From Bacteroidota bacterium (lineage in GTDB: Bacteria; Bacteroidota; Bacteroidia; Bacteroidales; UBA4417), in NCBI GenBank assembly GCA_013376995.1, contig JACAAZ010000002.1, positions 287,694 to 351,693 of the forward strand: DNA of 64,000 nt, in the 5' to 3' direction. The notes beneath the pieces were generated by a model that did no database searches, was not told the DNA's origin, and saw only the letters and a list, made by a program, of their open reading frames with translations. Position 1 is the stretch's first letter. Each line of letters starts with the position of its first letter. Of this stretch, positions 14,463 through 15,956 are shown piece by piece. The translations under genes and the position numbers were made by a program.

Positions 14463-14571
14463 ATGTTCAATAAGGATAACGGAATCTCAAATTTCTTAAG
14501 AATTAAGATGTGATGGAAGAATGTTTAAAAGTATTCTTAGTGGGTAATTTATTTGTTTGAATGATTTGTGC

Positions 14572-14635
14572 ATAATAAAATTCGTTTTAAAACGAGTAAT
14601 AGTATAATAAAACTCGTTTAGAAACGAGAAATATA
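14572..14635 (+). repeat. Two tandem 32-bp palindromic repeats upstream of the DUF4143 ATPase
   Basis: Two consecutive 32-base units start at 14572 and 14604. Each begins ATAATAAAA and contains the palindrome (A)CTCGTTT-NN-AAACGAG; the first copy has TTCG for CTCG. Two further units in the same orientation and spacing lie just after the ATPase gene at 15790-15853. There is no spacer between units, so this is not a CRISPR array. Position suggests an operator or recognition element for the enclosed gene. Confidence 0.85.
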
Positions 14636-14665
14636 CTATTTTTGTATGTTATAATCCTGGTAAGC

Positions 14666-15793
14666 ATGGTAAACAGAATTATTAAGGAGGACATTCTTTC
14701 ACATCTCTTTAAAGGCAAGGCTATTATCCTGATGGGTCCCCGGCAGACAGGGAAGACTACTCTCATAAGGAATATTTGCCAGGAGAGGAGTGAGTCGTTT
14801 TTATGGCTGAATGGTGATGATATGTCAGTCAGGGAGTTGCTTCAAAACATATCCATTGCCCGGCTTGCTACTATACTAGGGAATAACAGGATAATTGTGA
14901 TTGATGAAGCTCAGCGTATTGAAAACATTGGACTGGCGATAAAGATGATGGTTGATAATTACCCGGGTATCCAGGTAATTGCGTCAGGTTCTTCTTCGTT
15001 TGAGATTGCGGAAAAGATAAATGAACCACTTACCGGAAGGAAATGGGAATATCGCCTTTTTCCCTTTAGTCACAAAGAATTGGTTAATGAGCATGGCTGG
15101 GTTTCCGAGAATCAGCAGTTGGAAACCCGTCTGATTTATGGCTCCTATCCGGATGTGATCAATCATCCCGGTGAAGAAGCGAATGTATTGAACCTGCTCA
15201 CAGACAGCTTTCTATACAAGGATTTATTTGCATACGAAAAGATAAAAAAGCCCGGAATCCTGGTTAATTTACTGAAGGCCCTGGCTTTGCAGCTTGGTAA
15301 TGAATTGTCATACAATGAATTGGCACAAATTATCGGAATAGACAAAGAAACTGTCGACCGTTACATTGATGCATTGGAAAAATCCTTTGTTGTATTCCGC
15401 TTAAACTCTTTCAGCCGCAATGTCAGAAATGAATTGCGGCGTAGCAGGAAGATTTATTTCTACGACAACGGGATTCGGAATACAATACTTTCAAATTACA
15501 ATTCATTGAACCTGCGACAGGATACTGGTGCTTTATGGGAAAATTACTTCATTAGTGAAAGAATGAAATTTCTGAATTATAATAAGATATACGGGAATTC
15601 CTATTTTTGGCGCACTACCCAGCAACAGGAAATCGACTATATCGAGGAACGTTCAGGGAAATTAGAAGCATATGAACTGAAATGGAACATGAAGAAGAAA
15701 GCATCTGTTCCGGCTACTTTCATGAACGCATATCCCAACTCGGTCTTCTCGCTGGTTACTCCGGGAAATTATAACTCTTTCCTGGGAGCATAA
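14666..15793 (+). CDS. AAA ATPase with DUF4143 C-terminal domain
   Basis: A 375-residue P-loop ATPase of the AAA_14/DUF4143 family. Walker A is GPRQTGKT (residues 24-31) and Walker B is RIIVIDEAQRI. ASGSSSFEI follows as the sensor-like strand and GSYPDVI closes the ATPase part. The C-terminal DUF4143 portion has a winged-helix-like segment (ELSYNELAQIIGIDKETVDRYI) and a restriction-endonuclease-like end with IDYIEE and YELKW, as in many of these proteins. The biological function of the family is unknown. The ATG at 14666 is preferred over an upstream TTG. The stop codon lies inside a 32-bp palindromic repeat, and two repeats precede the start, so gene and repeats form one cassette. Confidence 0.85.
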   Translation: MVNRIIKEDILSHLFKGKAIILMGPRQTGKTTLIRNICQERSESFLWLNGDDMSVRELLQNISIARLATILGNNRIIVIDEAQRIENIGLAIKMMVDNYPGIQVIASGSSSFEIAEKINEPLTGRKWEYRLFPFSHKELVNEHGWVSENQQLETRLIYGSYPDVINHPGEEANVLNLLTDSFLYKDLFAYEKIKKPGILVNLLKALALQLGNELSYNELAQIIGIDKETVDRYIDALEKSFVVFRLNSFSRNVRNELRRSRKIYFYDNGIRNTILSNYNSLNLRQDTGALWENYFISERMKFLNYNKIYGNSYFWRTTQQQEIDYIEERSGKLEAYELKWNMKKKASVPATFMNAYPNSVFSLVTPGNYNSFLGA

Positions 15794-15853
15794 TAAAACT
15801 CGTTTGTAAACGAGAAATATTATAATAAAACTCGTTTGTAAACGAGAAATGTT
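15790..15853 (+). repeat. Two tandem 32-bp palindromic repeats at the 3' end of the DUF4143 ATPase
   Basis: Units start at 15790 and 15822. Both carry the core CTCGTTTGTAAACGAG and match each other over nearly the whole 32 bases. The first unit overlaps the TAA stop of the ATPase gene. They are in the same orientation as the upstream pair, with about 1.2 kb between the pairs. Confidence 0.88.
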
Positions 15854-15956
15854 ATTTTCCTTGTTTGTGTAGCATTTGAAGCAAATATTACGCTCGTCAG
15901 CTTACTTTTTAATACAAATTAGCATCTTAGTGATTCTATAATTCAAGTTTGCTTTC

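Follow-up and report, generated by a model that had tools for sequence, protein, structure and literature searches.

Paired palindromes in the promoters of AAA_14/DUF4143 ATPase genes of Bacteroidota as a probable operator array read by the encoded protein

The Locus and Its Repeat Units

The window, i.e., the whole stretch of 64,000 nucleotides that was analysed, carries on its forward strand (the strand of all its features given below) an AAA_14–winged-helix–DUF4143 (PD-(D/E)xK) ATPase gene at 14666–15793, recognised by profile matches, assigned to PDC-S01 by PADLOC and encoding 375 amino acids. Two 32-bp units precede this gene (14572–14635) and two follow it (15788–15853), all in a single orientation, as the initial annotation had stated and as the sequence confirms. 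Each unit is composed of a gene-specific 16-bp palindrome (A) and an AT-rich 16-bp linker (B). In the upstream pair, palindrome A1 (TTCGTTTTAAAACGAG, 14581–14596), recognised from the sequence, pattern match and array comparison, is separated by linker B1 (TAATAGTATAATAAAA, 14597–14612; relatives have similar linkers) from palindrome A2 (CTCGTTTAGAAACGAG, 14613–14628). The latter lies 32 bp from A1 and, judging from pattern match, array comparison and promoter register, is expected over the -33 promoter element. A Bacteroidota-type -7 box, TATTTTTG at 14637–14644, assigned by its match to the consensus TAnnTTTG, starts 16–17 bp from the A2 centre. Behind the gene, pattern matching identifies palindromes A3 (15799–15814) and A4 (15831–15846), both CTCGTTTGTAAACGAG. 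The palindrome CTCGTTT-NN-AAACGAG, initially ascribed to every unit, does not strictly apply to the first, which has a mismatch in one arm (TTCGTTT).

The two pairs belong to a block of about 73 bp that is duplicated as a direct repeat (14570–14642 and 15788–15858; 86% identity by alignment). The upstream copy comprises A1-B1-A2 and part of the -7 box, while the downstream copy starts at GCATAA and includes the stop codon (15791–15793), confirming the overlap with the end of the gene already pointed out in the initial annotation. In this copy the -7 box has decayed to TATTTTCC (15853–15860), as read from the sequence and the block alignment.

Counting both strands, the window has eight matches to the palindrome pattern where 0.07 would be expected. 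Within the genome of 5.05 Mb the pattern is confined to this locus, other matches having three mismatches and a frequency no higher than that of a reversed-pattern control. Repeats widespread in the genome without an ATPase, which had been named as evidence against a dedicated repeat, were therefore not found. The repeats might also be due to chance or belong to an interspersed repeat found throughout the genome, as one relative (L030) has an interspersed 30-bp repeat near its gene. Given the uniqueness of the window pattern in its genome, and a spacing and register that are kept in the family despite differing letters, we attach next to no probability to such an origin and have ruled it out. 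A CRISPR-like repeat-spacer array was likewise rejected, as the linkers are similar AT-rich stretches and there are just two units per side.

The ATPase Protein

Both Pfam domains score above their curated cut-offs (AAA_14, 102.4 bits, cut-off 27; DUF4143, 136.5 bits, cut-off 28.1), and the PADLOC PDC-S01 model PDLC04789 spans residues 1–373 (E 8.6e-167). Conservation among relatives locates Walker A (GPRQTGKT, residues 24–31, 14735–14758), where G24, G29 and K30 are kept in 147/147 ungapped rows, and Walker B (residues 80–81), where D80 and E81 are kept in 149/150. The PD-(D/E)xK core D324...E337-x-K339 (15635–15682) is equally well preserved (D324 in 150/150 relatives, E337 in 148/150, K339 in 146/150), as is E292 (149/150). 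The D...(D/E)xK catalytic motif of the window protein is thus intact, and nuclease activity is predicted. A putative recognition helix (residues 226–239, 15341–15382), with candidate specificity residues D226, K227 and E228 followed by an invariant T229, was delimited using co-variation and a weak model. The structure model, built from a shallow alignment, is poor (pLDDT 47); it places residues 226–229 at the start of a helix 227–239, and the Pfam HTH_11 match at residues 209–241 is weak and sub-threshold. The boundaries of this helix, which rest on that low-confidence model and sub-threshold match, should be taken as approximate. The Pfam domain search detected no transposase-type or recombinase domain in the window protein, and a sequence search found no solved full-length relative.

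PDC-S01, an ATPase fused to a PD-(D/E)xK domain, is reported as the fourth most common prokaryotic defence candidate, and most such candidates still await experimental validation (PMC12988326). In a rumen survey it was the most frequent single locus (PMC13356809). The window protein belongs over its full length to this same family of AAA_14–DUF4143 (COG1373) single-gene defence candidates, with the same combination of ATPase and PD-(D/E)xK domain (PMC12988326). We found no validated function for the PDC-S01 family in the open-access literature, and its defence role is that of a candidate. A phage origin of the gene was considered and rejected: just two weak matches occur in 2.9 million viral contigs, and the ten records from the phage collection are mostly unannotated faecal scaffolds.

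The Upstream Pair in Related Genes

About 150 relatives of the gene were collected from Bacteroidales genomes, metagenome-assembled ones among them. Paired 16-bp palindromes are present within 130 bp before the start codon in 61 of 147 relatives, and 50 of these 61 pairs are spaced by exactly 32 bp although 42 spacings were permitted. Such pairs are rare downstream of the gene (4/145), in background windows (22/2789) and before control genes from the same genomes (1/217, none at 32 bp; Fisher p 4e-27), these controls being mostly ordinary genes unmatched for accessory status. When an array score fitting palindromes and linker together was used, 95/148 genes exceeded the 99% quantile of shuffles, leaving about a third without a clear array above that cut. 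Between genes the letters of palindrome A vary, linker B stays AT-rich (e.g., AAATATTATAATATTT), and spacing and register remain constant among members whose palindromes differ. The identical 32-bp architecture is also found before a copy on a Treponema plasmid. At L170 (2140–2434), two divergent paralogues share one intergenic region in which each has its own array, one of a 32-bp GGAAT type and the other of a 33-bp GGGAATT type. No clear paired array was seen at the only other DUF4143 gene of the window genome (L047 1263–2462, contig C15; PDC-S01, with a TNET helix).

The upstream palindrome pair is thus a trait of the ATPase family. The question raised in the initial annotation, whether each DUF4143 gene has its own cognate palindrome, can be answered in the affirmative for each relative with a clear array, and the adverse outcome foreseen there, repeats absent around orthologous genes, did not materialise.

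Other repeat types were encountered near more distant or neighbouring genes. In a same-genus genome (G014, L085 2760–2900), a different ATPase gene (start at about 2889), which has no PADLOC match, lies in front of sbcD and is preceded by palindromic AT-rich sites, TACAACATTGTATTATAC...TACAATGTTGTATATTAC. Members of a distant DUF4143 subfamily (L177, L180, L181 and L185; 26–29% identity) have three to four head-to-tail units of 22-bp period in the upstream 130 bp, e.g., TGCAATTTCAAAAT, in place of 32-bp palindromes, and in another distant member (L174) the upstream 150 bp contain about four direct repeats of 33 bp, CCCGATAAAAACGTAACTCAAGTTCACATTTAA.

Register With the Promoter

In 88 of 95 genes A1 is followed by a TAnnTTTG box, shuffling giving an expectation of seven. 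Measured from the A2 centre, the box starts cluster at -14/-15, +15 to +17 and +46 to +48. All of these correspond to a single phase of the 32-bp repeat, so that array and promoter are in fixed register. According to established promoter anatomy, a palindrome would thereby lie over the -33 element, i.e., in the position of a repressor; judged from this site position, repression is probably to be expected rather than activation.

Co-variation of Recognition-Helix Residues and Palindrome Letters

Among about 370 protein columns, residue 228 ranks first for half-site identity. It pairs with half-site position 3 (p3) with a mutual information of 0.64, whereas the best column outside the helix reaches 0.17; position 2 pairs with residue 227 and position 4 with residue 226. 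The rule for residue 228 is simple and chemically ordinary: E or Q goes with C at p3, K, R or H with G, and N with T. A tree computed with the helix left out requires at least 35 changes at residue 228 and at least 31 at p3. Pairs that are phylogenetically independent favour the association of K/R/H with G at p3 by 6.8 to 0.0 (median sign-test p 0.016); the weaker pairs (227, 226, and E/Q at 228) go in the right direction and are not significant singly in sign tests.

The rule was then fixed and applied to 28 further loci, taken from different orders and classes within the phylum and from plasmid and phage records. All 15 of the 15 half-site predictions that exceeded the cut were right (permutation p 5e-5), and 14 of 17 strong pairs in this held-out set have the 32-bp spacing. 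The window gene conforms to the rule, having a DKET helix and C at p3. The expectation that a dedicated repeat would be a clue to target recognition is thus borne out, in that the palindrome letters co-vary with residues of the gene's own winged helix and can be predicted from them. No avoidance of equal specificities inside one genome was seen (4/72 pairs, 2.1 expected).

Promoter-proximal palindrome pairs are generally typical of repressor sites, and the palindromes might accordingly be operators of another, unlinked transcription factor. We consider this very improbable, because the letters track the recognition helix of the adjoining gene throughout the phylum, including the held-out loci, and because the site is missing elsewhere in the genome. 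Instead, it is quite likely that the ATPase gene has in the repeats an operator array of its own, read by the winged helix of its product and likely serving autorepression, the pair behind the gene being a copy of the one in front.

The Downstream Pair

A cognate array also follows the gene in about 7 of about 180 members: the window gene, L034, L131, L134, L145, partly L054, and L271 of the held-out set. In L134 the downstream palindromes occupy the same positions, +5 and +37, as in the window. The proposal that the gene had been inserted into a four-unit array is not supported: nearly all relatives have the upstream pair alone, in the promoter, and the downstream pair is a duplicate. With so few downstream arrays, a four-unit array as insertion target is rejected as a general rule.

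The downstream pair would accordingly represent a duplicated operator-promoter block, predicted to be still capable of being bound, and, having lost its -7 box, it is probably no promoter. In the four members whose copies have few gaps, conservation is higher in the palindrome arms (90/98) than in the rest of the block (143/176; p 0.02), a weak hint that the downstream sites may still be bound. The pair could also be a relic, without present function, of a tandem duplication of operator and gene after which the second gene was lost; this would fit the operator reading of the upstream pair, and we rate its chances slightly below even. Such an origin would agree with the decayed -7 box retained at its position in the downstream block, with similar decay in L131 and L134, and with the tandem and divergent paralogue pairs that occur in the family. 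Arguing against it are the excess conservation of the arms, the perfect downstream palindromes of the window, and the sequence up to 15957, which on inspection by eye showed no trace of a further coding sequence.

Independently, a 32-bp direct repeat, TTTTGGAATGTTTTGAAAATGAATTCAAATTA, occurs in two copies behind the L021 gene (2625–2760); it is mismatched to this gene's own palindrome and is possibly a relic of another family member.

Flanking Repeats and Insertion

Array and gene together behave as a cassette. Direct repeats (E<=1e-10) flank 24/146 genes and 1/217 of the controls, which are mostly ordinary rather than other accessory genes (Fisher p 1.5e-9); in the held-out set they flank 4/33 genes. 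They are 30 to 313 bp long, and most consist of 60–300 bp of neighbouring DNA outside array and gene, the remaining ones being the arrays themselves or short repeats. The copies are imperfect (71–97% identity; two short ones, 100% or 95%) and variable in length. For one relative, L130, about ten genomes of its genus have the empty site uninterrupted, and comparison with them reveals an insertion with target duplication: a 1228-bp unit directly follows the stop codon of a macB-like gene and the final 106 bp of that gene are duplicated, the two copies being 90% identical to each other and 76–88% to relatives. In addition, copies with 51–55% identity are carried by plasmids of Treponema (Spirochaetota) and Desulfosarcina (Thermodesulfobacteriota). 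Note also that the Bacteroides uniformis plasmid CP054202.1 has a copy (L195) with an apparently broken reading frame (tblastn in three pieces). An empty site for the window's own locus was not found, the sbcD–fucosidase synteny not being kept in the genus.

Thus, the mobility suspected in the initial annotation is supported for the family, but not in the form of a four-unit array as insertion site. These observations, together with the two-sided arrays of about seven members, could mean that a mobile element of a single gene has the arrays as its ends or targets, and that its ATPase-nuclease binds them and drives insertion of array and gene with duplication of target DNA. We regard this as rather unlikely. 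Most members carry the array on one side and in promoter register, differently from the terminal repeats on both sides and the recombinase of transposable elements; no transposase-type domain was detected; imperfect flanking repeats of variable length are also explicable by homologous or illegitimate recombination; the controls are of the kind described above; and the empty site was resolved for L130 alone. Even less probable, in our estimation, is a wider version in which these genes are widespread one-gene selfish elements whose ATPase-nuclease reads its own array, both repressing its promoter and directing insertion of array and gene, with target duplications of 50–300 bp and no known transposase or integrase.

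A Model for the Probable Operator Array

Starting from the computed architecture, -7 register, co-variation and held-out prediction, we infer how a dedicated operator array would work, from binding and dimerisation to repression, trigger and biological role. The winged helix would bind the 16-bp palindromes as a dimer, half-site position 4 being read by residue 226, position 2 by residue 227 and position 3 by residue 228. With palindromes 32 bp apart, or three helical turns, two bound dimers would be placed on the same face of the promoter. One of them would lie over the -33 element beside the TAnnTTTG box, a position from which the ATPase would most likely repress its own transcription. ATP and the PD-(D/E)xK domain might couple release or activity to a trigger, plausibly phage or DNA damage. 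As far as can be judged from sequence, each ATPase most likely binds its own promoter and probably represses it. For the window protein, or its winged helix, the predicted ligand is CTCGTTTNNAAACGAG, and TGCGATTNNAATCGCA is expected to stay unbound.

Relation to Known Systems

Toxin-antitoxin repressors and the C proteins of restriction-modification systems are helix-turn-helix autoregulators with co-evolving operators. The ATPase genes resemble them in having palindromes in their own promoter and a specificity that comes from few recognition-helix residues: the palindromic site appears to match the gene's own recognition helix, binding being predicted in the present case. Differently from these autoregulators, the regulator would here be an AAA ATPase whose nuclease motif is intact, in a one-gene unit that has an A-B-A-B array of fixed 32-bp period. 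Archaeal Orc1/Cdc6 proteins combine an AAA ATPase with a winged helix and have cognate ORB repeats beside their own gene. They thus share with the present family both domains and the cognate repeats adjoining the gene, whereas the arrays described here are locked to the promoter -7 box and the protein has an additional PD-(D/E)xK domain. Neither an operator array nor a recognition code or a target duplication was encountered for PDC-S01/DUF4143 genes in the open-access literature, which also yielded nothing on palindromes of DUF4143 genes.

A readable amino-acid-to-base code predicts part of a member's DNA ligand from its sequence. A self-matched operator would provide a molecular handle by which binding, derepression and the trigger become directly testable, and the family may offer a natural collection of one-gene repressors that differ in specificity.
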